From contig NZ_WARX01000001.1 in NCBI RefSeq assembly GCF_009720385.1, positions 1,426,001 to 1,490,000 on the forward strand: a stretch of DNA of 64,000 nucleotides. Reading direction: 5' to 3'. Position numbers and translations under genes: made by a program. The number at the start of each line of letters is the position of its first letter. The stretch's first letter is position 1. This DNA comes from Catellatospora vulcania. Its GTDB lineage: Bacteria; Actinomycetota; Actinomycetes; Mycobacteriales; Micromonosporaceae. The notes under the pieces were generated by a model. The model saw only the letters and a list, made by a program, of their open reading frames with translations. It had not been told where the DNA came from and did no database searches. Below are positions 1 through 16,218 of the stretch, piece by piece.

Positions 1-3000
1 TCCGCTCCCCGCCTGGACACGCTGCGCGGCTACGCGGCGAACCTGGCCGGGTTCGTGAAGGACAACCCGGACGCCGACCTGAGCCGCATCGCGTACACCC
101 TGCAGACCGGTCGTGAGGCCTACCGTGAGCGGCTGGCCGTGCTCGCCCCCGACGCGCAGCGGCTGGTCGAGGCGCTGTCGGCGGCGGCGCGTGACCTGCC
201 CGGCGGCGACACGCTCTTCCTGCAGGCTACCGCCGACGAGGCGGCCCCACCGGCCGAACCCGACGCCGACGCCGCCGACCTCGCCGAGGCGTGGGTCAAC
301 GGCGCGCTGGTGGAATGGGAGCTGCTCTGGGCAGACCAGCGTCCGCGGCTCATGTCGCTGCCCGGCGTCCCGTTCACCAAGGTGCGCCACTGGTTCAAGG
401 TGCCCGCGGCCCAGGCCGCCGTCGCTCAGGCTCCTGCTGCTCAGGCTTCCGTTGCTCAGGCGGCGACTGCTCAGGCCGCTGTCGCTCCGGCCCCTGTCGC
501 TGCGGCGACCGTCGCCAAGGAGGCTGCGGTCCAGCCGTCCGCGGCCGTGACCGGGCCGTCCGCGGCTGCGGCACTCCCGTCACCGGGATCTGCGGCAGCC
601 GGGGGCACGCAGGTCACCGACCGTCGCCGCCCGGCAGGCGAGAAGATCCGGCTGGCCGCGGCCCCGGCGCGCGGCCGAGGCGGTCTCACCCTGGCAGCGC
701 GGCCAGGCAGCGCCGCGTCGCCGCCCCGCGAAGCCGGCGGCGAAACCACGCCGACAGCACCCGAGCAGCCGCAGACCACCGCGCCCGCTACGGCACCGGC
801 GAGCCATCGGGAGCCCGACGCCGACGCTCGCGGCGGTGCGGCCGGCGCGGCCGAGGTCGACGGCCTGATCCGGGACAGCCTGGCCGAGGTGCTCGATCTC
901 CCCGCCGAATCGATCACGCCGACCAGCTCCTTCACCGGCATCGGCCTGGACTCGATCTTCCGCATGGAACTGGTACGCCGCATCAACACCGCCTACGGGC
1001 TGGAGCTGAAGGCCTCGGAGCTGTACGACTTCGACACCGTCGCCGAGCTCACCAGGGAGGTGCTGGCCGCGATCGCCGCCTCGCCGCAGGCCGCACCTGC
1101 CGTACCCGACCCGGCGCCCGCCGTGCCGGAGCCTGCACCGGCCGCCGAGGCGCTGCCCACACCTGCCCTCACCCCGCCGCCCGCACCCGCCGTGCGTCCT
1201 GCCCCGGCCGCACCCGCGGCGGCCCCCGTCGCCGGGCCCACGACCGGGGGCGATCACGCCGCGGCGCAGGCGCACCTGGCCAGGCTGCTGTCCACGGTGG
1301 CCGGCCGGGCGCTGCCCGCCGACGCCGGTCTCGCCGACGGCGGGCTGACCTCGTTCGACATGCTGCGCAGCGTGAGCGTGCTGGAGAAGCGGTTCGGCGC
1401 GTTGCGCAAGACGCTGCTGTTCGACCACCCGACGATGCCGCAGCTGGCCGGTCACCTGATCGAGCAGTACGGGTCCGGCGCGGTGGCCCGCCTGGCCGAG
1501 GCCGCCGACCTGGCCGAGGCCGGCTCGGCGGGCAGCGCCGACGGCGTCGCGCTCACCCCGGCGGCCCCACCGCCCGCGGGCGGGTGCGCCATCGTGCGCA
1601 AACGCAGCCTGCCGGAGTATCCGGAGCTGGCCGAACTGGTCGCGACCCTGGACAGCCGCTGGGCCAAGGAAGGCGGCCTGGCCGGACGCGACATCGCCCC
1701 GCTGATATTCCTCGGGGCCGAACGGGAGGGCTACTTCAACTTCTCCCGGCGCGACGACGTCCTGTTCGCCTGGAGCTACGTCGGCTCGCGCGAATACCTG
1801 CCCGTCCTGGTCGAGCAGTACGTCGCCTACGCCGACCGGCACCGGCTGCGGCCCAACTTCCTGTCGATGGAACGTATCGAGCAGGTGGCGGGCGTCGACT
1901 ACACCGCCACGCCGTTCGGCGCGATCCAGCGGCTGGAGGACCTGGGCTCGTTCACCCTGTCCGGCAGCCGTATGCAGCGGCTGCGCTACATGGTGGGCAA
2001 GTTCCAGTCGTCGGGTGCGTGCCGCGTCGAGGAGTACGCCGTGGGCGCCTCGCCGCAGACCGACGCGCAGATCGTCGAGCTGATGGGCCGCTGGGGCGAC
2101 TCGAAGCAGATGGTCAACCCGTACGTGGCGGTCGTGGCCGCCGAACTCGGCCAGGGGCGGCTGGCGGCCCGCCACCGCATGTTCCTGACCCACGTCGACG
2201 ACACGCTGTGCAGCGCGATCATCGTCACGAAGCTGCCCTCCGAACCGGCGTACCTGCTGGACCTGGAGTTCTATCCCGAGGAGGCGCCGCTGGGCGGGCT
2301 CGAGTTCGCGATCGTGCGGATCATCGAGCAGCTGCTGGCCGAGGGCGTGGAGATGTTCAGCTTCGGGGCGAGCTTCGGCGTGCAGACGGTCGAGTCGCCC
2401 AACGCCGCCCCGGAGGTGGCGCAGGGCATGTCGGAGCTGCGTTCGGTAGGCGTGTTCGGGGAGGGCAACTTCCAGTTCAAGAACAAGTTCCGGCCGACCA
2501 ACCTGCCGATCTACCTCTGCCAGCCCGACGACGACCGGGCCACCCCGGTCGCCGACATCATCCTGATGATCGCCAACCCCGACCTCGGCACGGTGGTGCC
2601 GGAGGAGCTGGGCTCCGCGCCGGTCACCGCCGTCGTCGCGCCCGGGGCGGCGACATCCTCACCCGCCGCCACGTCGCCGGTCCCGGCTTCCGCAGCCCCG
2701 ACCCGCGCGGTCGCCGCGCCGTCGACCCTCGCCCTGGCCGCCGCGCCGTCGCCGGCCGCCTCGGCGGTCTCCGGTCGCACGGCTTCGGCTTCCGGCACCT
2801 CCGCGCCGCCGGTTACGGCGGATGTCGCCGGCCGGTCGGCGGTGCTCGCCGCAGCCGGTCACAACCCCGTCACCCTGGCCGCGGACGCGGTGGAGTACGA
2901 CCTGATCACCGACTCCTGGGCGGAGCTGTCCACCCCGGCTGTGGCGCAGCGCATGGCGCAACTGAACGGGCATGGCCCGGCGACCGCCCCGCCGGCCCCG

Positions 3001-4935
3001 GCCTGGCTGGACTTCGCCCAGGTCGTCCCGACGCCGTCGGGGCGGACCGCCGAACACCTGCTGTGCCAGAGCTGGCCCGCGCCACCGGCGACCGTGCTGC
3101 ACAACGGGCTGTTCCCCACCTGGCTGATGAGCCTGGCCGAATCCGGCTTCCAGCCCGTCGCGCTGAACCAGGAACCCCCGGCCGAGGACGAGGTCTTCCA
3201 CGACCTCGACGTGGCGCAGCTGCGTTCGGCGCTGGCGCAGCGACCGGGCCAGGTGTCGATGGTGTGCCTGGAGCTGAGCAACAACGCCCACGGCGGGCAC
3301 CCGGTCTCACTGCGCAACCTGCGCGAGGTCGCCGGCGTGCTGCGCGAGGCCGGTGTGCCGCTGGTCCTGGACGCCACCCGCGTCGTGGAGAACGCCGCGT
3401 TCATCGTCGCCAACGAGCGCGGCCAGCAGGGCCGCGGCGTGTGGAAGGTCGTCGGCGACCTGCTGGCCACCGCCGACGCGGTCACGATGAGCCTGTCCAA
3501 GGACTTCGGCCTCGACTTCGGCGGCCTGGTCGCCGCGCGAGGCCAGGCGCTGGCCGACCGGCTGCGCGAACACACCAGCACGAAGGGCCACCTGGTCAAC
3601 CGCGCCGGACGGGCCCTGATCGCGACCGTGCTGGCCGACGCGGACGCGGTCGCCGCCCAGGTCGGCAAGCGCATGGCGACCGTCAAGTCGCTGTACGTCC
3701 AGCTCGCGGCCGACGGCCTGCCGGTCGTCGGGTCCCCGGGCGGGCACTGCGTGCTGCTCGACGTGGCCCGGATGCCCCGCTTCGCCGCCATGGAGCATCC
3801 GGTGCCGTCCTTCCTGGCCTGGCTCTACACCCAGACCGGCGTACGCGGCGGCCCGCACCTGGCCGCGGGCAGGCACGCCCTGGTCCGGCTCGCCGTCCCG
3901 GTGGGCACGGCACCGGGCGACGGCCGGCGGATCGGCAAACGCATCGTGGCCGCCTGGCACCGGGCCGACGACCCGGTCGAGCTGATCCCCGTCGACCCGT
4001 CCGCGCCGCCCGCCACCGCGGTCTACCACCCGGCCCACGTCGTGCCCCGTGACATCCGAAACGCGCTGCGCGAGGGCGCGCGGGCCCGCGACGACAACGA
4101 GGCGGTGCTGGCCGAATCCGGCGCCCGGGTCCAGCGGCGCCTGCTGCGCCTGTCGGGCCACGACCCGTACCCGGGCGAGGTCGAGGTCTTCACCGCGGGC
4201 GCCGGACCGACCCTGCTGCTGGTGCACCCGTTCAACATCGGGGCGGGACTGTTCGCCGAGCAGTTCGCCGGACTCGCGCAGCACTGCCAGGTGGTCGTCG
4301 TGCACGCCCCGGGCGTCGGCGCCACCAACGCCTCGGCCGACCTGACCCTCAACGGGCTGGCCGAGATGCACCACGCCGCGCTGCGCGAACTCGGCGTCAG
4401 CTGGCCGGTGCACGTGGGCGGCGCGTCGTTCGGCGGGCTGACCGCGCAGGCGTTCGCGCTGCGCTACCCGCAGGAGACCGCCTCGCTGACGCTGATCTGC
4501 AGCTCCTACAAGTCGGGCAACCGCTCCAACGAGGTCAACCGACTCGACGTCGTGATGCGCGAGGACTTCGACCGGCTCGCCGCGGCGGGGTCGACCAACC
4601 TCGACGAGGACCGCCGGCGGCACCTGGAGCAGCAGCTGCTGCGCTGCGAAAGCATGGACCCGCAGACCGGGCTGCGCTACCTGGACGTCTTCGCCGGGCA
4701 GCCCAACCTGCTGTCCCGGCTGGCCGACATCGCCGTACCCACCCTGATCATCCAGGGCCGCCACGACACCGTGATCCCGATGAAGACAGCCCACCTGCTG
4801 CACGGCAGCATTCCGCACGCGCGCTTCGAGCAGATCGAGGCGGGCCACTTCCCGATGCTGACCGACCCCGACACGCTCAACGAGCTGATCGCCGCCTACC
4901 TGGCCGAGCACGAGGAGACGGAGCCCCGCGCATGA
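1..4935 (+). CDS. lnmJ: Leinamycin-type polyketide synthase, C-terminal part (KS linker-ACP-ACP-DUF-SH-TE), 5' end outside window
   Basis: The frame is open from base 1, so the gene starts upstream; 1644 residues are visible. Residues 1-135 are the post-ketosynthase linker, ending in a PRLMSLPGVPF-type signature. ACP1 has GLDSI with Ser318. ACP2 has GLTSF with Ser451, where Thr replaces the usual Asp. Residues about 529-850 resemble DUF2156/GNAT acyltransferases. After an Ala/Pro linker, residues about 985-1335 are a tryptophanase/tyrosine-phenol-lyase-like PLP domain with LDATRVVENAAF and the PLP lysine at 1167 (SLSKDFG). Residues about 1350-1644 are an alpha/beta-hydrolase thioesterase with GASFG (Ser1476), a GRHD Asp and an AGHF His. 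DUF-PLP lyase-TE is the known end of LnmJ, whose SH domain cleaves the cysteine C-S bond to thiolate the chain. The stop overlaps the next start. The family call is firm; the product is not predictable from this fragment. Confidence 0.85.
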   Translation, partial: SAPRLDTLRGYAANLAGFVKDNPDADLSRIAYTLQTGREAYRERLAVLAPDAQRLVEALSAAARDLPGGDTLFLQATADEAAPPAEPDADAADLAEAWVNGALVEWELLWADQRPRLMSLPGVPFTKVRHWFKVPAAQAAVAQAPAAQASVAQAATAQAAVAPAPVAAATVAKEAAVQPSAAVTGPSAAAALPSPGSAAAGGTQVTDRRRPAGEKIRLAAAPARGRGGLTLAARPGSAASPPREAGGETTPTAPEQPQTTAPATAPASHREPDADARGGAAGAAEVDGLIRDSLAEVLDLPAESITPTSSFTGIGLDSIFRMELVRRINTAYGLELKASELYDFDTVAELTREVLAAIAASPQAAPAVPDPAPAVPEPAPAAEALPTPALTPPPAPAVRPAPAAPAAAPVAGPTTGGDHAAAQAHLARLLSTVAGRALPADAGLADGGLTSFDMLRSVSVLEKRFGALRKTLLFDHPTMPQLAGHLIEQYGSGAVARLAEAADLAEAGSAGSADGVALTPAAPPPAGGCAIVRKRSLPEYPELAELVATLDSRWAKEGGLAGRDIAPLIFLGAEREGYFNFSRRDDVLFAWSYVGSREYLPVLVEQYVAYADRHRLRPNFLSMERIEQVAGVDYTATPFGAIQRLEDLGSFTLSGSRMQRLRYMVGKFQSSGACRVEEYAVGASPQTDAQIVELMGRWGDSKQMVNPYVAVVAAELGQGRLAARHRMFLTHVDDTLCSAIIVTKLPSEPAYLLDLEFYPEEAPLGGLEFAIVRIIEQLLAEGVEMFSFGASFGVQTVESPNAAPEVAQGMSELRSVGVFGEGNFQFKNKFRPTNLPIYLCQPDDDRATPVADIILMIANPDLGTVVPEELGSAPVTAVVAPGAATSSPAATSPVPASAAPTRAVAAPSTLALAAAPSPAASAVSGRTASASGTSAPPVTADVAGRSAVLAAAGHNPVTLAADAVEYDLITDSWAELSTPAVAQRMAQLNGHGPATAPPAPAWLDFAQVVPTPSGRTAEHLLCQSWPAPPATVLHNGLFPTWLMSLAESGFQPVALNQEPPAEDEVFHDLDVAQLRSALAQRPGQVSMVCLELSNNAHGGHPVSLRNLREVAGVLREAGVPLVLDATRVVENAAFIVANERGQQGRGVWKVVGDLLATADAVTMSLSKDFGLDFGGLVAARGQALADRLREHTSTKGHLVNRAGRALIATVLADADAVAAQVGKRMATVKSLYVQLAADGLPVVGSPGGHCVLLDVARMPRFAAMEHPVPSFLAWLYTQTGVRGGPHLAAGRHALVRLAVPVGTAPGDGRRIGKRIVAAWHRADDPVELIPVDPSAPPATAVYHPAHVVPRDIRNALREGARARDDNEAVLAESGARVQRRLLRLSGHDPYPGEVEVFTAGAGPTLLLVHPFNIGAGLFAEQFAGLAQHCQVVVVHAPGVGATNASADLTLNGLAEMHHAALRELGVSWPVHVGGASFGGLTAQAFALRYPQETASLTLICSSYKSGNRSNEVNRLDVVMREDFDRLAAAGSTNLDEDRRRHLEQQLLRCESMDPQTGLRYLDVFAGQPNLLSRLADIAVPTLIIQGRHDTVIPMKTAHLLHGSIPHARFEQIEAGHFPMLTDPDTLNELIAAYLAEHEETEPRA

Positions 4936-5912
4936 CCACTACGTTGATCCATCCGCAGGTGTGGCGGTCGGCCGACGGGTCGGTATGCCGACTGGTCACG
5001 ATCAAGCCCGGCATGTGCGGGCACAACTCGCTGTTCTACGGCCAGCTCGGCGACTGGACCTGGGAGACGGTCAGCGAGCTGTGCGAGGCCGACGCGTTCA
5101 ACGCGTACAACGCCGCCGGGCAGCCGACCTACCTGTCGTTCTACTACTTCCACGTCCGGGCGGGCGACGCCCTGCACCCGCGCTCGCTGAGCTTCGGGCA
5201 CCGGGTCGAGGTCGTCTCCCGCGTCTTCGGGTTCGGCAGCGAGTCGGTGCTCACCCTGCACCGGCTGCGCCAGGTCGGGCCCGACTACGAGGCCGACCCG
5301 GACGCGGGCTTCGAACCGTACGAGTTCTACGACGCGCCTCGCGCCGACTGCCTGTACGTGCAGAACTTCAACCGCTGGGTCTCGCGCGGCCGGGACGGCA
5401 GCAACGAGGGCCTGGTCGCCGCGGCCCCGGTCGGGTTCCGGCACGAGCACCTGCCGCAACTGCCGGCGCAGTACTCTCCGCGCCTGGTCTACAGCCGGGC
5501 CCGGCAGCAGCTGACCTTCCACGACCCGCAGCAGCCCGGCTGGCGCGAGGTGGTCGGCGAGCACCGCACCGACTACCGGATCGACATCTCCCGTGACGTC
5601 AACGGCGTCGGGCTGCTGTACTTCGCGTCCTATTTCTCCATCGTCGACGGCGCGCTGCTCGGGCTGTGGCGCGAGCTTGGCCGCAGTGACCGGTCGTTCC
5701 TGGACCGGGTGGTTCACGACCAGAAGCTGTGCTACCTCGGTAACGCCGATGTGGACACCCGGTTGCGGATCACGATGCGCTCGTGGCGGGCCGAGCACGA
5801 CCCGGCCGAGGAGATGTTCAACGCCGTGATCGAGGACAGCGCCACCGACCGGGTCCTGGCGGTTTGCACGCTTCACATCCGCTCGGAGGGCAGCCATGTC
5901 GAACGTCGCTGA
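4932..5912 (+). CDS. lnmK: LnmK-like bifunctional acyltransferase/decarboxylase
   Basis: 326 residues starting at an ATGA overlap with the PKS stop. The protein matches what I know of LnmK: a double hot-dog protein that loads methylmalonyl-CoA onto a discrete ACP and decarboxylates it to propionyl-ACP for beta-alkylation. Supporting stretches are GMCGHNSLFYGQLGDWTWE near the N-terminus and PTYLSFYYFHVR at about 57-68, followed by a second hot-dog-like half containing DGALLGLWRELG. It lies directly between the DUF-SH-TE PKS and the ACP and HMG-synthase genes, the expected partners. The 3' end overlaps the next gene by 17 bases, implying translational coupling. The propionyl specificity is inferred from the family. 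Confidence 0.82.
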   Translation: MTTTLIHPQVWRSADGSVCRLVTIKPGMCGHNSLFYGQLGDWTWETVSELCEADAFNAYNAAGQPTYLSFYYFHVRAGDALHPRSLSFGHRVEVVSRVFGFGSESVLTLHRLRQVGPDYEADPDAGFEPYEFYDAPRADCLYVQNFNRWVSRGRDGSNEGLVAAAPVGFRHEHLPQLPAQYSPRLVYSRARQQLTFHDPQQPGWREVVGEHRTDYRIDISRDVNGVGLLYFASYFSIVDGALLGLWRELGRSDRSFLDRVVHDQKLCYLGNADVDTRLRITMRSWRAEHDPAEEMFNAVIEDSATDRVLAVCTLHIRSEGSHVERR

Positions 5913-6159
5913 ACCGGACCGGGAGAAGATCGCCATCCTGGTCACCGAGACGATCACGGCCATCCTGCCGCTGGTCACGCCCGATCAGATCCGTGAGGAC
6001 ATCCACCTGATGGATCTCGGCGCGGACTCGGTCGACCGCGTCGAGATCATCATGCTGCTCATCGAGCGGTGCGGCCTGAACGAGCCGATGAGCAGCTTCA
6101 GCGCGATACCCGACATCGGCGCACTGATCGACTTCGTACGGGAGAGGAAGCGGCGATGA
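5896..6159 (+). CDS. lnmL: Discrete acyl carrier protein, LnmL-like
   Basis: 87 residues, one ACP domain with the phosphopantetheine site GADSVDRVEI (Ser45). It starts inside the end of the lnmK-like gene and its TGA overlaps the ATG of the HMG-synthase gene. By position and family it is the carrier on which the LnmK-like enzyme forms the acyl group for transfer to a beta-keto intermediate on the PKS. The context matches lnmK-lnmL-lnmM. The second discrete ACP at 7407 could share or split this job, so the pairing is inferred. Confidence 0.8.
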   Translation: MSNVAEPDREKIAILVTETITAILPLVTPDQIREDIHLMDLGADSVDRVEIIMLLIERCGLNEPMSSFSAIPDIGALIDFVRERKRR

Positions 6160-7397
6160 GCCTGACCGGCATCGGCATCGAAGCGATCAACGTCTTCTGC
6201 GGGCTGGCCCAGCTGCCCGTGCCGGCCCTGTTCGACGGCAGGGGCCTGGACCGGCAGCGGCTCGACCACCTGATGATGGAGTCGCGGTCGATCGCGCTGC
6301 CCTGCGAGGACCCGGTGACCAACGCCGTCAACGCGGCGCTGCCCATCGTCCGCGGGCTCGGCGACGCCGAACGCGACAGCATCGAAATCCTGATCACGTC
6401 CAGCGAGTCGGGCGTCGACTACAGCAAGTCCATCAGCTCCTACGTGCACGACCTGCTCGGGCTCAGCCGGCACTGCCGCGTGTTCGAGGCCAAGCAGGCC
6501 TGCTACGCGGCCACCGCGGCGGTGCAGCTGGCCGCCGCGTACGTGTCCTCCGGCGTGTCGCCCGGAGCCAGGGCGCTGGTCATCGCGACGGACGTGGCCA
6601 TGGTCGACGCACGGGCCGGGTACGCCGAACCGGCCACCGGCCACGGCGCCGCGGCGATGCTGATCAGCGACCAGCCCCGGGTGATGGCCTTCGACCTGGG
6701 CGCGTTCGGCACGTACAGCTACGAGACGCTGGACTCGGCCCGGCCCGGTCCCGACTTCGACATCGCCGACGTCGACGCCTCCCTGTTCGCCTACCTCGAC
6801 TGCCTGTCGCAGACGTTCGCCGACTACCGCACCAAGGTCGACGACGTCGACTTCGCCACGACGTTCGATTACCTGGCGCTGCACACGCCGTTCGCCGGGC
6901 TGGTCAAGGCCGGGCACCGCAAGCTGATGCGCGAGCAGGCACGGGCCTCGGTCGAGGAGGTCGACGCCGACTTCGCGGCCCGGGTGATGCCGTCGCTGCG
7001 CTATCCGAGCCTGGTCGGCAACCTGTGCTCCGGAGCCGTCTACCTGGCGCTGTGCAGCCTCATCGACAACGCGCCCTACACCGACGGGGCCAGGGTCGGG
7101 ATGTTCTCCTACGGCTCGGGCTGCGCGTCGGAGTTCTTCAGCGGGCTGATCGACCAGGGTTCGCGCGACGAACTGGCGCGCATGCGCATCGCCGAGCACC
7201 TGGCCGCCCGCCTGCCGCTGACCTTCGCCGAGTACGCCGAAATGCTCGAGGAGAACAAGCAGTGCCTCGTGCCGGTGCCCGACCGCGAGGTCGAGATCGC
7301 CCGGTACAAGCGCTTCTTCGAGGCGAGCGCCGAGCGGGGGCCGCTGCTGGCGCTGCGCGGCGTCGAAGCCTTCCATCGCAAGTACGAGTGGGTTTAG
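6156..7397 (+). CDS. lnmM: HMG-CoA synthase-like beta-branching enzyme, LnmM-like
   Basis: About 413 residues from the ATG at 6156 (MSLTGIGIEAINVFCG), which overlaps the ACP stop. The open frame extends upstream to 6069, but the overlap start fits the family. It belongs to the HCS group that adds an acyl-ACP carbanion to a beta-keto polyketide to begin beta-alkyl branching. The catalytic Cys lies in KQACYAAT (Cys116), with the Glu in SSESGVDYSKS and the His-containing LALHTPFAGLVKAGHRK stretch. Later steps need enoyl-CoA hydratase homologues. None is seen here, so those genes must lie upstream, if present. Confidence 0.88.
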   Translation: MSLTGIGIEAINVFCGLAQLPVPALFDGRGLDRQRLDHLMMESRSIALPCEDPVTNAVNAALPIVRGLGDAERDSIEILITSSESGVDYSKSISSYVHDLLGLSRHCRVFEAKQACYAATAAVQLAAAYVSSGVSPGARALVIATDVAMVDARAGYAEPATGHGAAAMLISDQPRVMAFDLGAFGTYSYETLDSARPGPDFDIADVDASLFAYLDCLSQTFADYRTKVDDVDFATTFDYLALHTPFAGLVKAGHRKLMREQARASVEEVDADFAARVMPSLRYPSLVGNLCSGAVYLALCSLIDNAPYTDGARVGMFSYGSGCASEFFSGLIDQGSRDELARMRIAEHLAARLPLTFAEYAEMLEENKQCLVPVPDREVEIARYKRFFEASAERGPLLALRGVEAFHRKYEWV

Positions 7398-7406: not shown

Positions 7407-7649
7407 ATGGAACAGAACGACATCTTCGCGATGGTGCGCGGCAACCTCAGCACCGTGATCCCGGAACTGGACGCCGACGAGATCACCATGGACGCGACGC
7501 TGACCGACCTGGGCTGCAACAGCATCGACCGGGCCGAGGTCGTCACGATGACCATGTCGGACATGGGCATCCACGTGCCGGTCATGGAGTTCCAGGAGGC
7601 CGGCGACATCCGCTCGCTGGTACGGCTGCTCGCCCGGCACACGGCGTGA
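7407..7649 (+). CDS. Second discrete acyl carrier protein
   Basis: 80 residues with the phosphopantetheine site GCNSIDRAEV (Ser39). It begins 9 bases after the HMG-synthase stop, and its TGA overlaps the GTG of the decarboxylative ketosynthase, so the two are probably a functional pair. In HMGS cassettes outside leinamycin, the donor ACP (AcpK type) is loaded with malonate and decarboxylated by exactly such a KS. This carrier may therefore bring an acetyl unit, whereas the ACP at 5896 would bring propionyl. That division is inference. Confidence 0.8.
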   Translation: MEQNDIFAMVRGNLSTVIPELDADEITMDATLTDLGCNSIDRAEVVTMTMSDMGIHVPVMEFQEAGDIRSLVRLLARHTA

Positions 7650-8914
7650 GCGCGGCCGCCAACGGCGCGGGCGTCCCGGTCGTGGTGACCGGCATCGGCG
7701 TGGCGTGCTCGATCGGCGTCGGCGTCGAGCCGTTCGCCGCGTCGCTGCGCGCGGGCCGCACCGGCATCCGCCGCCAGGACGGCCAGGTCAGCGCGCCCCT
7801 GGCCGGATTCGACTTCGCCCATGCGGTCGGCGCCGTGCCCGGCCTGCCGCAGGAGCTGAGCAGGCGGGCGCTGCGCAAGGCCGGGCGCTCGCTGCCCGCC
7901 GTCCAGGCGGCCGTGGCCGCGGCGCTGCAGGCGTGGACCGGTGCCGGCCTGCCTGCCGCGGACCTGCCCGGTAGCCAGGTCGGGGTCGTGGTGGGCGGCA
8001 ACAACGTCACCGGCGCGGCGGCGTACCGGATGGCCGAACGTTTCCGCGGCGACCCCGTCGCGGTGCCCGGCAGGTTCGCCCTGCACGTGCAGGACACCGA
8101 CCACGTCGGGGTGCTCAGCGAGATCCTGGCGATCACGGGGGAGGGGTACACCGTCGGCGGCGCGGCGGCCAGCGGCAACCTCGCCGTCATCCACGGCGCC
8201 CGCATGGTCCGCAGCGGGGCGGCGCGCGCCTGCCTGGTCGTCGGGGCGATGACCGAGCTGTCACCGGTGGACCGGCAGAGTTACCTGGCGCTGGGCGCGA
8301 TGGCCGACCCCGCTGCCGCACCCGACGACGACGTGCTGTGCCGCCCGTTCGACACGACCCGGCGCGGCTTCGTCGCCGGGGAGGGCACCGCGGCGCTGCT
8401 GCTGGAGGCGGAGCCGTCGGCCCGCGCCCGCGGGGTGCGCCCGCTGGCCCGGGTGGCCGGCGAGGCGATGGCCCTGTCGGCCAACAGCCTGGCCGACCCG
8501 AGCGAGGAGGTCGAGGTGGCGGTGATGTCCACCGCACTCGCGCGTGCCGGCGCACGGCCGGAGCAGCTCGACTACGTCAACACGCACGGCACGGCGTCGC
8601 GCCTGGGTGACGAGGTCGAGGCCGCCGCGCTGCGGCGGGTGCTGGGCCGCGACAGCGGCGCGTGGGTCAACGCCACCAAGGCGCTCACCGGGCACTGCCT
8701 GTGCGGGGCCGGCGCGGTCGAGGCGGTCGCCACGGTCGTGCAGATGACGCACGGCTTCGTGCACCCGAACCCGCACCTGGGCATGCCGCTGACCGGCGAG
8801 TTGCGGTTCGCCGGCCGGCAGGCCGAACCGGCCCGCATCGGCCTGGCACTGTCCAACGGTTTCGGGTTCGGCGGGCTGCACTCGGCTGTGGTCTTCGCGG
8901 GGGAGGTGGCGTGA
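7646..8914 (+). CDS. Ketosynthase-like decarboxylase of a beta-branching cassette (active-site Cys replaced by Ala)
   Basis: 422 residues from the GTG at 7646, which overlaps the ACP stop as GTGA. The fold is KAS II-like. The catalytic nucleophile region reads TVGGAAASGN, with Ala174 where condensing enzymes carry Cys. The His of NTHGTAS (314), Lys345 (NATKALTGH) and His350 are kept. Loss of Cys with retained His residues is the mark of KS enzymes that only decarboxylate malonyl-ACP, as in PksF/CurC-type HMGS cassettes; the GGA-x-ASGN context also matches that group. The gene overlaps the type II thioesterase start. A chain-length-factor role is the main alternative, but no partner KS sits beside it. 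Confidence 0.85.
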   Translation: MSAAANGAGVPVVVTGIGVACSIGVGVEPFAASLRAGRTGIRRQDGQVSAPLAGFDFAHAVGAVPGLPQELSRRALRKAGRSLPAVQAAVAAALQAWTGAGLPAADLPGSQVGVVVGGNNVTGAAAYRMAERFRGDPVAVPGRFALHVQDTDHVGVLSEILAITGEGYTVGGAAASGNLAVIHGARMVRSGAARACLVVGAMTELSPVDRQSYLALGAMADPAAAPDDDVLCRPFDTTRRGFVAGEGTAALLLEAEPSARARGVRPLARVAGEAMALSANSLADPSEEVEVAVMSTALARAGARPEQLDYVNTHGTASRLGDEVEAAALRRVLGRDSGAWVNATKALTGHCLCGAGAVEAVATVVQMTHGFVHPNPHLGMPLTGELRFAGRQAEPARIGLALSNGFGFGGLHSAVVFAGEVA

Positions 8915-9708
8915 GCATGCGCGGCGCATGGGTGGTGCCCGAGCCCAGCCTGGACTCGGCGCGGGTCAGGCTGTTCTGCGTGCCGCACGCCGGCGGCGGC
9001 GGGGTGATGTTCCGGCCCTGGCGTGACCTGCTCGGATCCGAGGTGGAGGCGTGTTCGATCGTGCTGCCCGGCCGGGAGAGCCGCATCCACGAGCTGCCCT
9101 ACGTACGCATGGAGCAGCTGGTCGGGCCGCTGTTCGAGCAGCTGCGGCCGCACCTGGACCGGCCCTTCGCGCTGTTCGGGCACAGCATGGGCGCCGTCGT
9201 CGCCTACGAGCTGGCGCGCCGCTGCCAGCTCGAAGGCGCCCCGGCCCCGGTCCGGCTGTTCGTGTCAGCGCGGCGCGCACCGCACCTGCCCGCCCGCCGG
9301 CCGTCCTACGCCGACCTGAGCGACGACGAGTTCCTGACGGCGGTCGCCGCCATGAACGGCACGCCCGCCGAGGTGCTGGCCCAGCGTGACCTGCTGAAGA
9401 TCTTCCTGCCGGGGCTGCGCGGCGACTTCGAGCTCAACGACACCTACGTTCCGCTGCCCGGCCCCCGGCTGACCTGCCCGATCTCGGCCTCCGTCGGCGA
9501 CGCCGACCCTGAGGCCGACCTGCCGGAGATCCTGGCGTGGTCGCAGGTCACCACCGGCGGGTTCCGCAGCCGGGTGTTCCCCGGCGACCACTTCTACCTC
9601 AAGACCGACCCGGCGGCGCTGCTGCGCGCGATCTGCGACGACCTGGGGGTCCGCAGCGGCTCCGCGGCCGGCGGCGAGCTGGTGCCCAGCCCGCCGCCGC
9701 GCGGCTGA
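8911..9708 (+). CDS. Type II thioesterase of the PKS cluster
   Basis: 265 residues from the GTG at 8911, which overlaps the ketosynthase stop as GTGA; an ATG two codons downstream is also possible, and GGGGGAGG lies just upstream. It has the family pattern LFCVPHAGGGGVMFRPW, the nucleophile in FGHSMGA (Ser92), an Asp near SVGDADPEAD and the His in PGDHFYL. Type II thioesterases remove wrongly primed acyl groups from carrier proteins. This is the last gene of the overlapping + strand operon and probably corresponds to LnmN. The C-terminus is a proline-rich tail. Confidence 0.87.
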   Translation: MSMRGAWVVPEPSLDSARVRLFCVPHAGGGGVMFRPWRDLLGSEVEACSIVLPGRESRIHELPYVRMEQLVGPLFEQLRPHLDRPFALFGHSMGAVVAYELARRCQLEGAPAPVRLFVSARRAPHLPARRPSYADLSDDEFLTAVAAMNGTPAEVLAQRDLLKIFLPGLRGDFELNDTYVPLPGPRLTCPISASVGDADPEADLPEILAWSQVTTGGFRSRVFPGDHFYLKTDPAALLRAICDDLGVRSGSAAGGELVPSPPPRG

Positions 9709-9718: not shown

Positions 9719-10117
9719 TTAGTCGAGGTCGTAGTCGAGCCGCAGCGTGTTCCTGCCCTGCTCGTCGTGCCCGAAGGTGCAGCTGCCGCGCAGGCCGGCC
9801 AGCTCGCCGGTGCCGGAGTTGGGCACGATGAACCCGAGCCGGTGCGGCGTCTCGCCGCCCATGGCCGCCACGTGCTGCAGGACGAACGTGCCGCGGCGGC
9901 CCGCGATGGTGGCCGCGACGTGCTCGTTGGCGACGTAGCCGGCGGACTTCGCGTCGGGGCGGCAGCAGAGCAGGATGGCCTCGCTGGTGCCCTCGATGTC
10001 ACCGTGCAGGGTCCGCTTGACGTCTGCCCGGATCAGCGGGTGCCCTTCGGCCGGCTCGAAGTAGTTGTGCTCGTCCCAGGCGTCCTGGTCCCACAGGGCG
10101 ACGGCTACCTTGCTCAC
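9719..10117 (-). CDS. DUF3224 family protein
   Basis: 132 residues. The pattern VKRTLHGDIEGTSEA, then GTFVLQH and SGTGELAGLRGSCTF with a final LDYDLD, is typical of the DUF3224 family of small beta-barrel proteins with no settled biochemical role. It is the only minus-strand gene within the cluster. It converges on the type II thioesterase with a 10-base gap and diverges from the ligase gene. A role as a cyclase-like or binding protein in the pathway is possible, but nothing in the sequence proves it. Confidence 0.75.
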   Translation of the reverse strand: MSKVAVALWDQDAWDEHNYFEPAEGHPLIRADVKRTLHGDIEGTSEAILLCCRPDAKSAGYVANEHVAATIAGRRGTFVLQHVAAMGGETPHRLGFIVPNSGTGELAGLRGSCTFGHDEQGRNTLRLDYDLD

Positions 10118-10270
10118 TGCGTGTCTCCTTTCAGGCCGCAGCGGGCCCGCAGCGGCCAGGTGTCAACGTCGGAGTCTAAGAGGATGTTCAGGGCCATGAC
10201 GCTCAATAGTGAGCGGTTGTGTCGATAGCGGGTTTATACCGTGTAACTTCCGTGTCGTCGAGGAGCGCGC
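10118..10270. promoter_or_regulatory. Divergent intergenic region of the cluster
   Basis: 153 bases between the divergent DUF3224 gene and the ligase gene must hold both promoters. It is more AT-rich than its surroundings near 10200-10250, with a TATACC stretch at about 10235. I see no strong inverted repeat and do not assign -35 or -10 elements. GAGGAGCGCGC before the ligase ATG supplies the RBS. Confidence 0.45.
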
Positions 10271-11758
10271 ATGAGTGAGACCACGTCCCAGCCCATCGTC
10301 ACCGATCTGCTCCGCTTCCGCGCGGACGGATACCCGGATCGGGTGGCGATCAACGTCGATGGCCAGGATACGATCACCTACGGACAATGGCAGCGGCGCG
10401 TCACCCGCACCGTGCACACCTTGCTGGCGAACGGTGTCGGCCGAGGCGAACGGGTCGGCCTGCTCTTCGGTGGCATGGACTGGATCGACTACGCGGTGGC
10501 CTACCTGGCGGTGCTCAGCGCCGGAGCCACCGCGGTCCACCTCAACGACGGCATGCCCGCCCAGGAGATCCGCCGGCGGCTCGACGAGTGCGACTCGCGG
10601 CGGCTGATCCGCGGCGGCGACCAGGCCACACCCGAAGGCTTCGGCGGCTGGTCGGTGACCGTCGCCGAGATCGACAGCGGCGACGAGACACCGGTCTCGG
10701 TGGAGATCGGGCTGCACGACATCGCCGACATCCTCTACACCTCCGGCACCACCGGGCCCGCGAAGGGCTTCACGAATCCGCACGGCACCCTCACGTTCGG
10801 GCGCGGGCCCGCAGGTCTGCAGCAGTTCACCAACCCGACGCCGCTGCTCGCGCCCATGCCGCTGGGCACCACGTCGAGCGCGACCACCGTCGCGATCGTG
10901 GCCCTGACCGCGACGGCGGAGGTCGTCGTGTGCCGCCTCGACGACGTCGTGCGGATGGGTGAGCTGATCGACCGCTACCGGATCGGCTCCATCATGCTCA
11001 CCCCCTGGATCGCGATGCAGATGATCGCGGCACGGCTCGACGAGCACTTCGACGTCGGCTGCGTCGAGCGCATCGGGATCGCCTCGGCGCCCATGCCGCC
11101 GACGGTGTCGCTGGCGCTGCTGAAGGTCTTCCCCGGCGCGCAGCTCAACACCGCGTACGCGCAGTCCGAGGCGGTGCCCGCCGTCATCGTCAACACCTTC
11201 GACCCGGCCCGGCCCGCGACACTGGGCCGCCCCGCGCCCGGCACCCAGCTGCGGGTCGCCGACGAGCACGGCGAGCCGGTCCCGGTCGGCGAGGTGGGGG
11301 AGATCTGGCTGCGCTCGGAAGCCCCCCGGCGCCTCTACCTGGACACCGAGCGGGCCAAGCAGACCAACGTGGACGGCTGGATCCGCACCGGCGACTTCGG
11401 CCACACCGACGCCGAGGGATACCTTTACCTCTTCGACCGCGGCAGCGACGTGCTGCACGTGGGCGGGCGCAGGCTGTCCTCGGTCGAGATCGAGTCCGCG
11501 CTCTACGAGCACCCGGCGGTCACCCAGGCGGCGGTCCTGCCCTGGGGGGACGCCGACCGGGGCCAGACGATCGCGGCGGCGGTGGTGCTCAGCGACGGCG
11601 AGGCGCTGCCGCGGGTGTCGTCGTTCCTGGCCGAGCGGCTGCGCCCGGAGCAGGTGCCCTCACATGTCTTCGTGGTGGACAGCCTGCCGCGCGGGGTCAC
11701 CGGCAAGGTGCTCAAGAACGAGCTGCGCAAGCAGCTGATCGAGCAGGAGGAGAACTGA
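10271..11758 (+). CDS. AMP-forming acyl-CoA/aryl-CoA ligase-like adenylating enzyme
   Basis: 495 residues of the ANL superfamily. The ATP-binding loop is LYTSGTTGPAKG (about 157-168), the hinge is GWIRTGDFG, and the C-terminal catalytic Lys is in PRGVTGKVLK. The protein activates a carboxylate with ATP for transfer to CoA or a carrier. In leinamycin the matching job (LnmQ) is an adenylation protein for D-alanine, but the substrate pocket here cannot be read with confidence. The ATG at 10271 has GAGGAG upstream. The DUF427 gene follows after 2 bases, implying coupling. Confidence 0.8.
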   Translation: MSETTSQPIVTDLLRFRADGYPDRVAINVDGQDTITYGQWQRRVTRTVHTLLANGVGRGERVGLLFGGMDWIDYAVAYLAVLSAGATAVHLNDGMPAQEIRRRLDECDSRRLIRGGDQATPEGFGGWSVTVAEIDSGDETPVSVEIGLHDIADILYTSGTTGPAKGFTNPHGTLTFGRGPAGLQQFTNPTPLLAPMPLGTTSSATTVAIVALTATAEVVVCRLDDVVRMGELIDRYRIGSIMLTPWIAMQMIAARLDEHFDVGCVERIGIASAPMPPTVSLALLKVFPGAQLNTAYAQSEAVPAVIVNTFDPARPATLGRPAPGTQLRVADEHGEPVPVGEVGEIWLRSEAPRRLYLDTERAKQTNVDGWIRTGDFGHTDAEGYLYLFDRGSDVLHVGGRRLSSVEIESALYEHPAVTQAAVLPWGDADRGQTIAAAVVLSDGEALPRVSSFLAERLRPEQVPSHVFVVDSLPRGVTGKVLKNELRKQLIEQEEN

Positions 11759-11760
11759 CC

Positions 11761-12078: not shown

Positions 12079-12086
12079 CTTCCGCA

Positions 12087-12137
12087 GACGTACGGGCTCG
12101 GCTGCGCGGTCATACCGCGCAGCCGAGCCCGTACGTC
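12087..12137. terminator. Bidirectional terminator: perfect 24-bp stem, 3-base loop
   Basis: Arms 12087-12110 and 12114-12137 are exact reverse complements around the loop CAT. The hairpin lies between the convergent DUF427 and VOC genes (stops at 12078 and 12164), so it can end transcription from both sides. No T-run follows, as is common for actinobacterial hairpin terminators. Confidence 0.85.
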
Positions 12138-12163
12138 GTCGCGCGGTCGGTCCGCGCCGTGGC

Positions 12164-12532
12164 TCAGCTCTTGGCGGGGAACAGGCAGAACGGGTGGCCC
12201 GCCGGGTCCAGGTAGACGGTCCAGCGCTCGCCGCCCGGCTGCTCCGGTGCCTTCTTGGCGCCGTGCTCGAGCACGAGTGCCTCGGTCTCGTCCAGGTTGT
12301 CCACGGCGAAGTCCAGGTGGAACTGCTGCGGCACGTCCTGGCCGGGCCACTGCGGGGCCTGGTAGTCCGCCACCTTCTGGAAACCGATGGCCGGCCCGCC
12401 GTCGGCCTCCAGGCCGGCGAAGCTGTCGGAGCTGTAGGAGATCTTCAGGCCGGTGAGGTGCTGGTAGAACTCGGCCAGCTGTGCCGGGTCGGCGCAGTCC
12501 AATGTCACTGCGTGGAGCTTGGTCGTAGGCAT
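12164..12532 (-). CDS. VOC (glyoxalase/bleomycin-resistance fold) protein
   Basis: 122 residues, a single vicinal-oxygen-chelate domain pair. It begins MPTTKLHAVTLDCADPAQLAEFY and ends YLDPAGHPFCLF, both typical of the family. Such proteins bind metals or sequester small toxic molecules, and some modify metabolites. It follows the cluster across the terminator in the opposite direction, so it is not part of that transcript. A self-resistance role is conceivable but unsupported. Confidence 0.85.
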   Translation of the reverse strand: MPTTKLHAVTLDCADPAQLAEFYQHLTGLKISYSSDSFAGLEADGGPAIGFQKVADYQAPQWPGQDVPQQFHLDFAVDNLDETEALVLEHGAKKAPEQPGGERWTVYLDPAGHPFCLFPAKS

Positions 12533-12705: not shown

Positions 12706-13917
12706 TCAGCGCGACGGCGTCGACTCGGCCGCCGGGCTCAGCAGCGCCCGCAGCTCCGGGGTGTACAGCTCGGAGACCGGGCGCACCCCCGCCACCGTGT
12801 CGAAATAGCGCTGCGTCAGATCCGGGCTCGTGCTCACCGCGCGCAGCAGCGCCTTGCGCTGCGGTCGGGCGTCGGCCTGCGCGACCAGCAGGGTCGCGCG
12901 GTAGCTGTCGGTCAGCAGCCGGTCCCGCTCCTCGGCATAGGACGCCAGCGCCTGCGCCAGGTGCTCCTCGTCGCCCAGCCGGTCGCCGACGTGGCCGGTC
13001 AGCAGATCCGCCTGCAGGAACGCGTCGCCGATGCCGCGCGCGGTGATGGAGTCCTTGTGGTGGCCCGCGTCGCCGACCAGCGCCCAGCCCGGTCCCGCCG
13101 CCTGGCGGAAGAAGTTCTGCTGGTCGCCCGTGCCGCGCAGCCGCTCCACCTGCTCGCCCGCGCGCATCTGCGCGAACAGCGCCGGCGCGTTGACCTCGAC
13201 GCTGCGCAGGTAGGCCCCCTGGGCGTCGCCGCGGACCTCGTCGAAGCGGTCCTGCGTGAAATACGCCGAGACCAGCACCGCGTCATTGGTGGGCACCGCG
13301 GAGACCCAGCCCTCGTCGCCCTCGTACAGCTCGAAGTAGGTCTTCAGGCCGTGCCAGAACGTGTAGTAGGCGCAGGTCAGACGCGGATGCTCGACGGTTT
13401 TCGGGGCGTCGACCAGCGTGGCGACGGTGGAGCGCATGCCGTCGGCGCCGACGACCAGCCACGCCCGCGCCGTCGCCTCCTTGCCCGACGGCAGGGTGTA
13501 GCGCACGCCCGTCACCCGGTCTCCGCCGCGGAGCAGGCCGGTGACCGCGCATCGTTCCTGCAGCTCCGCGCCCGCCGCCACGGCCGCCTCGGCCAGGATC
13601 TGGTCGAGCAGGTGCCGCCGCGGGGCGTAGGCCGACGAGACACCGTCGACGGCCGCCGCGCAGCCCTCGACGCGCACCTCGTCCAGTTCGTAGACCACGT
13701 GGTCGAGCTCGGGGCAGCCGGTCGCCACGACCGCGTCGAGCACACCCCACCGCTTCAGCCGCGCCACACCCGGTTGCTGGATGTAGAGCGTGGAGATCTT
13801 GTCAGAGGGAAAGGCCGAGCGTTCGAGCAGCAGCACCCGGTAGCCGAGCCTGGCGAACAACATCGCGGTGGGCGAACCCGCGCACCGCGCGCCCACGACG
13901 ATCACGTCGTAATCCAT
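12706..13917 (-). CDS. FAD-dependent monooxygenase/oxidoreductase
   Basis: 403 residues from the ATG at 13917, chosen over the longer frame to 14010 because GAGGTGG sits just before it and MDYDVIVVGARCAGSP is the normal N-terminus. The Rossmann FAD motif is GARCAG, with the second dinucleotide motif GADGMRST and the flavin-pyrophosphate motif VGDAGHHKD. The family hydroxylates or otherwise oxidises small molecules. It lies downstream of a TetR gene in the same direction. Substrate unknown; it could be a tailoring enzyme for the nearby cluster or a detoxification enzyme. Confidence 0.85.
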   Translation of the reverse strand: MDYDVIVVGARCAGSPTAMLFARLGYRVLLLERSAFPSDKISTLYIQQPGVARLKRWGVLDAVVATGCPELDHVVYELDEVRVEGCAAAVDGVSSAYAPRRHLLDQILAEAAVAAGAELQERCAVTGLLRGGDRVTGVRYTLPSGKEATARAWLVVGADGMRSTVATLVDAPKTVEHPRLTCAYYTFWHGLKTYFELYEGDEGWVSAVPTNDAVLVSAYFTQDRFDEVRGDAQGAYLRSVEVNAPALFAQMRAGEQVERLRGTGDQQNFFRQAAGPGWALVGDAGHHKDSITARGIGDAFLQADLLTGHVGDRLGDEEHLAQALASYAEERDRLLTDSYRATLLVAQADARPQRKALLRAVSTSPDLTQRYFDTVAGVRPVSELYTPELRALLSPAAESTPSR

Positions 13918-14019: not shown

Positions 14020-14628
14020 CTACCGACGGATCAACGGGATCAGCACACCGTCCACGACGGACACGAGGAACTGGTCGGGCACCGGGCTGGAATCACCCAG
14101 GAAGCGGTACATGAGCATGGCGGGTCCGACCTCGGCGACCAGCGGGCTCAGGTGCGCCGGGTGCACCTCGCCGCGTCCCACCGCCCGGTCGAAGACCAGC
14201 TGGAACATGTTGCGGCGCGGCTTGAACACGCGCTCGTCGACCAACTTGACCAGCGGCTGGTCACGGTCGATCTCGGCGAGCAGGCTCTGCACGGCACGCC
14301 CCACCGGCGAGTTGAGCACCGCCGCCTTGGCGCGCATCAGCTCGACCATGTCGTCGCGCACGTTGCCGAGGTCCGGCAGGTCCTCCGCGGCCGGCAGCAT
14401 GTGGTCGATGGTCTCCACGACCAGGTCGGCCTTGTCCGACCAGCGCCGGTACAGCGCCGCCTTGCCGGTCTGGGCGGCAGCGGCGACGCGCTCCATGGTG
14501 AGCCCCGCGTATCCGACTGCCCGTAACTGGTCGATCACGGCCTGGAAGATGGCCGACTCCAGTGCGTCCCCTCGGCGACGCCGCACCGCCGTCGGCGCCG
14601 GCTGCTTGTCTTGACCGCCGTCGTCCAC
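14020..14628 (-). CDS. TetR family transcriptional regulator
   Basis: 202 residues from a GTG preceded by GGAAGGAG. The N-terminal HTH reads LTMERVAAAAQTGKAALYRRWSDKADL, typical of TetR/AcrR. The gene diverges from an MFS exporter and precedes the flavin monooxygenase. This is the usual layout for a repressor that is released by the exporter's substrate. The inverted repeat at 14650-14671 is the likely operator. Confidence 0.9.
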   Translation of the reverse strand: MDDGGQDKQPAPTAVRRRRGDALESAIFQAVIDQLRAVGYAGLTMERVAAAAQTGKAALYRRWSDKADLVVETIDHMLPAAEDLPDLGNVRDDMVELMRAKAAVLNSPVGRAVQSLLAEIDRDQPLVKLVDERVFKPRRNMFQLVFDRAVGRGEVHPAHLSPLVAEVGPAMLMYRFLGDSSPVPDQFLVSVVDGVLIPLIRR

Positions 14629-14736: not shown

Positions 14737-16218
14737 ATGATGACCAGTTCGGTATCTGCTGCACCAACCTCCCCAAGCCGCCCGCGCCGCAGCGGGCTGG
14801 CGCTGACCGTCATCGCGTTGGCACAGCTCATGGTGGTTCTCGACGCCACAATCGTCAACGTTGCCTTGCCGAGCGTGCAGCGGTCGCTGGGATTCTCGAC
14901 GGCAGAGCTGTCCTGGGTGGTCAACGCCTATACGCTCTCGTTCGGTGGCCTGCTGCTGCTGGCCGGCCGGGCCGGCGACATCCTGGGCCGGCGTCGGGTT
15001 TTCGTCACCGGTTTGGTGGTTTTCGGCATCGGCTCGCTGATCGGCGGGCTGGCCTCGTCCTCGGAGTGGCTGCTCGTGGCGCGCTCGCTGCAGGGCGTCG
15101 GCGCCGCGATCGTCGCGCCGGCCGCGCTGTCGCTCATCGCCACCAGCTTCCAGGGTGAGCGTGAGATCAATCGTGCCTTCGGCGTGTTCGCGGCCGTGTC
15201 CGGCGCGGGTGGCGCCATCGGCCTGCTGCTGGGCGGCGTGCTCACCGAGTGGCTCTCGTGGCGGTGGGTCATGTTCGTCAACGTGCCGCTGGCCATCGGG
15301 CTGGCGCTGCTGGCGCCGCTGTGCATCGCCGAGACGGAGCGCCAGCGCGGCCGGTTCGACATCCTCGGCGCCATCACGTCCACAGTGGGCATGGTCGCGC
15401 TGGTCTACGGCTTCACCCGGGTCGCGTCCGGCGGCTGGGGCGACTCGGTGGCCGTCACCTCGTTCGTGGTGGCGGTGGTCATGCTGATCCTGTTCGTCAT
15501 CATCGAGCGGATCATCGAACAGCCGATCACGCCGCTGCGCATGTTCGCCGACCGCAACCGGGCCGCGATCTACGTCATCGCGCTGGCGCTGACCGGCGCG
15601 CTGATGGGCCTGTTCTTCTTCCTGACGATGTTCATGCAGAACGTGCTGAACTACGGCCCGCTGCAGGCAGGTCTGGCGTTCCTGCCGGTCAGCATCTCCA
15701 TCGTCGTGGTCGTCGGCATGACCTCGAAGCTGCTGCCCAAGATCGGGCAGAAGACGCCCCTGGTGGCGGGCCTGGCGCTGAACACGGTCGCCCTCGGCTG
15801 GCTGTCGACGATCTCGGCCGACAGCACCTACCTGCAGGCCATCCTCGGCCCGCTGCTGCTGTTCGGCATCGGCACCGGCCTGCTGTTCGTGCCGCTGACG
15901 ATGATCGGCGTGTCCGGTGTGGAGCAGCACGAGGCGGGCGCCGCCTCCGGCGTCCTCAACGCCATGCAGCAGGTCGGCGGCTCGCTCGGCCTGTCGATCC
16001 TGGTCACCGCATACGGGTTCGCCGTCCGTGACGTGTCCGGCGACCCGATCGCGGTGCTGACCGAGGGCACCCCGACCGCCTTCCTCGTCGCCGCGATCTT
16101 CGCCGCGGTGGCTTTCCTGATAGCCGTCCTGGTCGTCCGTCCCGCCGTTCCCCCGGCGGCGGGAGCCCCGGCCGCTCCGGCCGAGGTCCACGAGGCGGAG
16201 GCCGCCCAGCCCGTGTAG
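14737..16218 (+). CDS. MFS drug exporter, DHA2 (14-TM, EmrB/QacA) type
   Basis: 493 residues; ATG at 14737, or the next codon, with AAGG just upstream. About 14 hydrophobic segments run through the protein. The signatures LDATIVNVALPSVQRSL in TM1 and GRAGDILGRRRVF in the first cytoplasmic loop, then GGVLTEWLSWRWVMFVNVP, are those of proton-driven multidrug exporters of the DHA2 group. It is divergent from the TetR regulator. It may export the product of the adjacent polyketide cluster, but the cluster boundary makes that only a possibility. Confidence 0.92.
   Translation: MMTSSVSAAPTSPSRPRRSGLALTVIALAQLMVVLDATIVNVALPSVQRSLGFSTAELSWVVNAYTLSFGGLLLLAGRAGDILGRRRVFVTGLVVFGIGSLIGGLASSSEWLLVARSLQGVGAAIVAPAALSLIATSFQGEREINRAFGVFAAVSGAGGAIGLLLGGVLTEWLSWRWVMFVNVPLAIGLALLAPLCIAETERQRGRFDILGAITSTVGMVALVYGFTRVASGGWGDSVAVTSFVVAVVMLILFVIIERIIEQPITPLRMFADRNRAAIYVIALALTGALMGLFFFLTMFMQNVLNYGPLQAGLAFLPVSISIVVVVGMTSKLLPKIGQKTPLVAGLALNTVALGWLSTISADSTYLQAILGPLLLFGIGTGLLFVPLTMIGVSGVEQHEAGAASGVLNAMQQVGGSLGLSILVTAYGFAVRDVSGDPIAVLTEGTPTAFLVAAIFAAVAFLIAVLVVRPAVPPAAGAPAAPAEVHEAEAAQPV

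Follow-up and report, generated by a model that had tools for sequence, protein, structure and literature searches.

What does the sulfur-handling end of a giant polyketide synthase (PKS) in Catellatospora vulcania belong to, and what would the assembly line make? The question is raised by the first 4935 bases of the 64,000-nucleotide stretch analysed here (the window; contig C1:1426001-1490000 of an 8.8-Mb genome). An earlier reading, made from the letters alone (the sequence-only reading), had placed a leinamycin-type DUF-SH-TE ending there, in which SH is a pyridoxal phosphate (PLP)-dependent domain and TE a thioesterase. The analysis was extended to the 60 kb before the window, 124 kb in all. 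Very probably, the 4935 bases encode the terminal module, KS8-ACP-ACP-DUF-SH-TE (KS, ketosynthase; ACP, acyl carrier protein), of a trans-acyltransferase (trans-AT) hybrid of non-ribosomal peptide synthetase (NRPS) and PKS, of the largimycin type within the leinamycin family, with a predicted product that lacks the C-3 side-chain epoxide.

Domain anatomy of the terminal module

Bases 1-4935 (+) form a single open frame, the sole stop of which is the last codon. Joined to the upstream DNA, they encode the C-terminal 1644 residues of a 7132-aa PKS of the LnmJ/LrgJ type (J), the gene for which starts outside the window at position -16463 (C1:1409537). Pfam analysis of these residues identified a KS-linker (1-63, 4e-16), two PP-binding stretches (4e-21), LPG_synthase_C/DUF2156 (591-840, 6e-15), Beta_elim_lyase (1002-1237, 1e-25) and Abhydrolase_1 (1403-1623, 4e-18). 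The KS-ACP-ACP-DUF-SH-TE architecture of the leinamycin family is present in J. The end of the module-8 KS region, with its RhiE/CurL-like trans-AT KS linker, occupies bases 1..189 (PF22336/PF22621, read in the joined 7132-aa frame). It is followed by ACP 1 of the tandem pair (868..1056, PF00550, Ser318), ACP 2 (1258..1470, approximate boundaries, second PF00550 stretch, Ser451), the DUF domain (1600..2640, PF09924), the SH domain (2824..3849, tryptophanase-like over residues 942-1283) and the TE (4207..4869), all on the + strand.

The DUF-SH-TE feature is real, and chance is excluded. The Pfam anatomy bore out the LnmJ-type ending that had been read from the sequence, with exact coordinates, and the Schiff-base lysine lies precisely at residue 1167, in SLSKDFG (bases 3499-3501). 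A complete TE triad had also been claimed; Ser1476 (GGASFGG) and His1616 (AGHFP) were located, and the third member is likely Asp1589 in GRHD, an assignment made by motif only. The LnmK/L/M beta-branching set reported to adjoin J follows it directly, as an LnmK homologue (TIGR04098), an ACP and an HMG synthase (HMGS) at 4932-7397.

Residues D35, R39, E41, Y60 and D63 mark the first module-8 ACP as the beta-branch acceptor, and T32, M36, R38, F56 and P59 mark the second, non-acceptor ACP (PMC7618002). In J, ACP 1 carries five of five acceptor residues, and ACP 2, the off-loading type, five of five non-acceptor residues. Of the 12 sites in J that fit G.[DTSEN]S, one reached a score of 5 for each signature; of the 7 such sites in the partner protein I described below, none did. 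Using patterns taken from the C. vulcania protein, 41 DUF-SH loci were found in genome contigs. The full residue pair occurs in 20 of the 41 (L032 and L033 being identical), L030 has 4/5 and 5/5, and 20 have neither signature, several of these being short frames. At L018, L019, L021-L026, L028, L031, L037, L038 and L042, the frames with DUF-SH are long (about 2000-6700 aa) but carry no leinamycin tandem-ACP signature; these are probably other assembly lines that share the sulfur module.

Grouping of the SH and DUF domains

To place the PLP domain, SH regions were recovered from 36 of the 41 loci and two short rows were dropped, which left 34 and, with C. vulcania, 35 rows. These were set against 15 tryptophanases from the bacterial family of C. 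vulcania. The 35 SH rows and the 15 tryptophanase rows separated at 100/100 support, which rules out an origin of the PLP domain from free-standing tryptophanases; the domain falls among PKS SH domains. It joins three Streptomyces SH domains at 100/100, those of Streptomyces sp. CB01373 (L017/G011), S. cellostaticus GX14503 (L005/G001) and Streptomyces sp. Tue 6430 (L016/G010). SH_L034, L031 and L035 are long branches, and their placement is unsure. The PLP domain also missed the cut-offs of tryptophanase NF009709 (143.5 bits vs 285) and tyrosine phenol-lyase (TPL; 112 bits vs 721). By sequence, its nearest solved structure is PDB 9cen, 'Polyketide Synthase Protein' (1.1e-82, vs 1.1e-30 for tyrosine phenol-lyase).

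All 29 aligned DUF members matched PF09924 (LPG_synthase_C), and a profile built from the DUF members matched LpiA/MprF-type domains, at best 8.5e-16. In PMC8479088 and related papers the addition of L-thiocysteine by the DUF domain stands as a proposal only.

The upstream assembly line and loading genes

J is preceded by a 4285-aa protein, the LnmI/LrgI homologue (I). By Pfam, I contains two C-type (condensation) domains, an adenylation (A) domain, a nitroreductase-like domain (Ox) and three KS, and J contains DH-KR (dehydratase and ketoreductase), KS-ECH, KS-DH-KR, KS-DH-KR and the last KS, where the in-line enoyl-CoA hydratase-like domain (ECH, PF00378) follows the first KS of J, in module 5. 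No AT domain (PF00698) was found in I or J at 1e-5, and a discrete AT gene lies upstream (P0004, PF00698 1.5e-35). A cis-AT PKS was thereby ruled out, and the trans-AT features on which the sequence-only reading depended are in place. A search upstream for lnmI, lnmG and lnmF homologues returned the LnmI homologue, an AT and NMO-type gene at the LnmG position, and ECH1. Both condensation domains of I show DxxxxD, presumably the cyclisation type. The HGTGT motif is missing from the first KS in all four I homologues inspected (C. vulcania, G011, G001 and G013), so that six elongating KS would remain.

Further upstream lie, besides the AT/NMO-type gene and ECH1, a second HMGS, a discrete A-PCP (PCP, peptidyl carrier protein) and an alpha/beta hydrolase. 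The second HMGS set, for the C-9 beta-branch, consists of P0002, P0003, a decarboxylating KS (KS0) and a second ACP. Before the LrgI homologue stand the discrete A domain P0006, the PhyH-type enzyme P0007, a SyrB2-like halogenase that keeps HxA, and the alpha/beta hydrolase P0008 at the transfer-protein position. The code of P0006 is DFWNIGMVH, which we take to be of the Thr type. A Thr-type A domain beside a SyrB2-like halogenase suggests a chlorothreonine starter. The A domain of the LnmI homologue has the code DLFNCALVW, compared with DLFNAAMVW in CB01373 and DLFNFSLVW in the Nonomuraea spiralis and Paractinoplanes homologues; these codes were read by eye from motif anchors, and not from a structural alignment. 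The C. vulcania code has Ala301 in common with that of CB01373 but departs from it at two further positions, and the second amino acid may therefore be another one.

On either side of the HMGS/ECH/AT block, at -39798..-38899 and -34324..-33368 (L002:202-1101 and 5676-6632), lie genes for DUF6039 proteins (7e-119 and 1e-127), and relatives of both occur in the four clusters compared.

Assignment to the largimycin type

The cluster extends from about -44.3 to +16.2 kb, with 27 genes called from -44291 to 16218. The CB01373 cluster holds matches for 26 of these, with best matches of 55-83%, and the two clusters agree in gene order between the first regulator and the AMP-ligase. In the S. cellostaticus GX14503 cluster, 25 of the 27 were matched, and the first-regulator frame absent there was recovered by tblastn. 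For the largimycin cluster (lrg), a Thr-loading trio, two HMGS sets and the VOC protein LrgB are described (PMC9396626), and counterparts of all of these are in the C. vulcania cluster. Judged by gene content and order, the cluster is a largimycin-type member of the leinamycin family. The leinamycin-family assembly line of the sequence-only reading thus stands, and the leinamycin type proper gives way, by CB01373 synteny, to the largimycin type.

A FAD-dependent oxidoreductase gene (12706..13917, -; PF01494) is the candidate for LrgO, the oxime-forming enzyme. It is 70% identical to the FAD oxidoreductase of the CB01373 cluster, and in the CB01373 and S. cellostaticus clusters no called gene other than its counterpart has an N-terminal FAD-type motif. 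Loss of LrgO leads to a macrolactam (PMC13200230). The presence of a likely LrgO orthologue favours an oxime-ester or ester macrolactone over a macrolactam, and suggests an oxime-type macrolactone ring; the macrolactam-like product named earlier becomes less likely.

A reduced P450 set

From the three-P450 set LrgC1, LrgC2 and LrgC3, the C. vulcania cluster has only the LrgC2 type (66%), which is nearest to PikC and CYP107A1 and lies beside two Crp-type regulators (-44291..-43833 and -41814..-41278). In all three Streptomyces relatives (G011, G010 and G001), LrgC1- and LrgC3-type P450s, a phosphopantetheinyl transferase (PPTase), a PIG-L/LmbE-like gene and a second AMP-ligase occur. These five are absent from the 124 kb examined in C. 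vulcania, to which the PPTase search was confined. A 59% relative of the PIG-L-like gene lies elsewhere in the genome, so this function may not be lost. Among the relatives' P450s, that at L062:13038-14321 is nearest to PDB 3dbg/3el3, presumably CYP170A1, and was taken as the LrgC1 type. The third was assigned to LrgC3 mainly by elimination, since its match to CYP164A2 (1.4e-48) is exceeded by others, including CYP107A1 (1.2e-51). In print, LrgC2 is called CYP107-like and LrgC1 CYP170A1-like (PMC13200230).

In S. argillaceus, loss of lrgC1 removes the C-3 epoxide and the mutant makes tetrahydrothiophene-type compounds, the lrgC2 mutant makes beta-thiolactone compounds, and LrgC3 is speculated to hydroxylate alanine to serine on the NRPS (PMC13200230). 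With only the LrgC2-type P450 present, the predicted C. vulcania product is a relative of largimycin that lacks the C-3 side-chain epoxide. The cluster is predicted either to dispense with LrgC3 or to replace its function.

Alternative readings

The sulfur chemistry and the class of assembly line could each be read differently. In an earlier proposal, which the sequence-only reading shared, SH is a cysteine lyase that acts on a cysteinyl-polyketide adduct and leaves -SH, and LnmJ-SH does show weak cysteine-lyase activity in vitro (PMC8479088). However, the SH domains of LnmJ, GnmT and WsmR convert thiocysteine adducts to -SSH, with kcat/Km values 50- to 106-fold above those for cysteinyl substrates (PMC8479088), the nascent guangnanmycin (GNM) and leinamycin (LNM) products are reported as hydropersulfides, and the C. 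vulcania domain sits within the SH group of the tree. We consider a cysteine lyase quite improbable: lyase chemistry is retained, but the published SH domains are thiocysteine lyases that install -SSH. A charged, persulfidated cysteinyl-tRNA could conceivably supply the DUF domain in place of free L-thiocysteine, making -SSH installation tRNA-dependent, since by sequence the solved structures closest to it are those of aminoacyl-tRNA-dependent phosphatidylglycerol synthases of the MprF/LpiA type. The proposed DUF chemistry, conjugate addition through sulfur, differs from the acyl transfer of those relatives. We hold a tRNA role to be a long shot. Such a role was not found in print, and the word tRNA is absent from the main text of PMC8479088, PMC7618002 and PMC13200230. 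DUF-SH is also found in unrelated assembly lines, with three other groups besides leinamycin (PMC8479088), and the 20 loci that do not show the leinamycin pair of tandem ACPs, several being truncated, would fit such lines. Membership of C. vulcania J in one of those groups has practically no chance, being ruled out by the tandem-ACP signature, the TE, LnmK/L/M and the LnmI partner, which are all present.

The leinamycin-family, largimycin-type reading without the epoxide must then be weighed against two readings of the missing P450s. True largimycin could be made if P450 genes elsewhere in the genome supplied the LrgC1 and LrgC3 functions. P450s are numerous (15 matches to an LrgC3-type query at 1e-20), and the best LrgC1-like gene, C3:16396-17568 (34%), is the reciprocal best match of LrgC1 in all three Streptomyces genomes. 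That match is only 34-35%, however, against 55-83% for the cluster best matches, and the gene sits amid those for MetRS, TatD, rRNA adenine dimethylase and GHMP kinase. The best LrgC3-like P450 (41%) is closer to other Streptomyces P450s (51%) than to LrgC3 (41-42%). At 34% and 41%, these genes do not look like orthologues and were rejected as such; we judge that true largimycin is an unlikely product. Alternatively, having lost two P450s, including one that S. argillaceus cannot do without, the cluster could be a remnant in decay with no product at all. In S. argillaceus, loss of lrgC3 leaves no detectable product (PMC13200230); LnmK was found in 1/11 genomes of the genus, C. vulcania only. 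Against decay, the 4285-aa and 7132-aa frames are intact with the inspected catalytic motifs in place, and the HGTGT motif lacking in the first KS of I is likewise lacking in the three other I homologues. A remnant therefore seems very unlikely. Several points nevertheless count against the reading we prefer. By the same S. argillaceus result, an LrgC3-less cluster might be silent or reliant on another P450. The DLFNCALVW code leaves the choice of Ser or Cys unsettled, the MFS-TetR-FAD-VOC block has the opposite orientation to that in CB01373, and the lrg names follow from gene order, P450 family and text descriptions of the S. argillaceus cluster.

Proposed pathway

Each reaction proposed here is assigned by homology; what was observed is the anatomy of domains and genes, how they group, and which motifs are conserved. 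The discrete A-PCP would load L-Thr, which the SyrB2-like halogenase would chlorinate. The LnmI/LrgI homologue would condense this starter with a second amino acid and form an azole, and modules 3-7 would elongate the chain, with an acetyl-derived beta-branch introduced at module 5 by HMGS2, KS0, ECH1 and the in-line ECH domain. At module 8, LnmK/L/M1 with ECH1 would furnish the first tandem ACP with a beta-branch that is carboxylated and derived from propionyl. The DUF domain would then add L-thiocysteine to the resulting alkene, SH would cleave the cysteinyl C-S bond by PLP-dependent beta-elimination to give a C-3 hydropersulfide (-SSH), and the TE would cyclise and release the product from the second ACP.

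Leinamycin-family compounds are rare sulfur-containing antitumour leads. The cluster resembles a largimycin line, outside Streptomyces, that is naturally devoid of lrgC1 and lrgC3. From its product one could learn whether azole formation truly requires LrgC3, and which fate awaits the C-3 hydropersulfide if no side-chain epoxide ever forms.

Downstream genes and wider distribution

The genes after J begin with the LnmK/LrgK homologue, a putative methylmalonyl acyltransferase/decarboxylase (4932..5912, +; TIGR04098 7.9e-83, PDB LnmK 4hzo 3.6e-106), a donor ACP at the LnmL/LrgL position (5896..6159, +; PF00550 5.6e-7, 57% to its CB01373 counterpart) and the HMG synthase at the LnmM/LrgM1 position (6156..7397, +; PF08540, 71% to CB01373). 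A second, LrgA-like donor ACP (7407..7649, +; PF00550 1.5e-7, 65% to CB01373) precedes an LrgD-like KS0 (7646..8914, +; PF00109/PF02801), in which the active-site Cys is replaced (GGAAASG), and an LrgN-like type II thioesterase (8917..9708, +; PF00975 2.6e-42). Two genes kept in the CB01373 cluster follow, for a DUF3224 protein (9719..10117, -; 61%) and an AMP-ligase (10271..11758, +; 63%). The DUF427 gene at 11761-12078 is the sole called gene without a CB01373-cluster match. Beyond it are a VOC/glyoxalase-like protein, the LrgB candidate (12164..12532, -; PF18029, 72% to CB01373), the LrgO candidate, a TetR-family regulator (14020..14628, -; 62-70% to two CB01373 genes) and an MFS transporter (14830..16218, +; 51-62% to two CB01373 frames). 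Elsewhere in the window lie genes for a Cas3-like HD/helicase protein (21068-23227), a flavin amine oxidase with a C-terminal cyclic-nucleotide-binding domain (24752-26656, -) and a GH43 glycosidase with a Golvesin C-terminal domain (44310-45716, -).

A halogenase of the C. vulcania type occurs in 15/17 DUF-SH genomes searched and, at 1e-60, in 16/200 sampled genomes of the family (11 of the 16 at at least 66%, C. vulcania included); only for the four retrieved clusters was its distance from the PKS examined. LnmK was found in 3/394 sampled genomes of the class, C. vulcania included. In an Ardenticatenaceae metagenome-assembled genome of the Chloroflexota (L008), bases 10001-12502 and the 3' flank encode a module 8 of the leinamycin type in which both tandem-ACP signatures are present, and the locus also has HMGS, KS0, ECH1, AT-ER (ER, enoylreductase) and DUF6039. 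No LnmK match was found there at 1e-3 within 22.5 kb. The leinamycin family thus appears to reach outside the Actinomycetota.

Comparison with known systems

The closest described system is lrg of S. argillaceus (BGC0001853), known here by description (PMC9396626, PMC13200230). Shared with it are LrgI/J, the module-5 in-line ECH2, the module-8 tandem ACPs, two HMGSs, LrgK/L, LrgA/D, ECH1, the Thr-loading A domain, the halogenase, the transfer protein, an LrgC2-type P450 flanked by regulator and transporter, the FAD oxidoreductase and the VOC protein. Unlike lrg, the C. vulcania cluster has neither an LrgC1- nor an LrgC3-type P450 and lacks a PPTase at the LrgQ position, and its host is not a Streptomyces. 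According to the cloning text of PMC13200230, the lrg order is lrgT2-lrgR2-lrgC2 to one side and lrgC2-lrgQ/lrgR1 to the opposite side. The CB01373 order is Na/H-exchanger-like transporter, regulator, P450, PPTase and regulator, and that of C. vulcania is the same minus the PPTase. Streptomyces sp. Tue 6430 was compared for eleven selected proteins only.

The leinamycin cluster (lnm), as described in print and compared in sequence through the LnmK structures only, shares the K/L/M set and the module-8 architecture. Leinamycin itself has a thiazole and an 18-membered macrolactam (PMC13200230), and, unlike lnm, the C. vulcania cluster combines Thr loading and a halogenase with an additional beta-branch set and a likely oxime-forming enzyme. 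Weishanmycin (wsm) shares the DUF-SH-TE ending, the module-5 ECH2 and the tandem-ACP residues; wsm uses one donor ACP and KS0 (PMC7618002), whereas C. vulcania has LnmK besides KS0 and two donor ACPs. Five biosynthetic gene clusters of Salinispora arenicola have a 65% antiSMASH similarity score to largimycin (PMC12838356), and leinamycin-like clusters have been noted in Micromonospora (PMC5765111); a first occurrence of the largimycin type within the Micromonospora family, considered at one point, was therefore dropped. The C. vulcania cluster adds a new member, reduced in its P450 set, to the known leinamycin/largimycin family.

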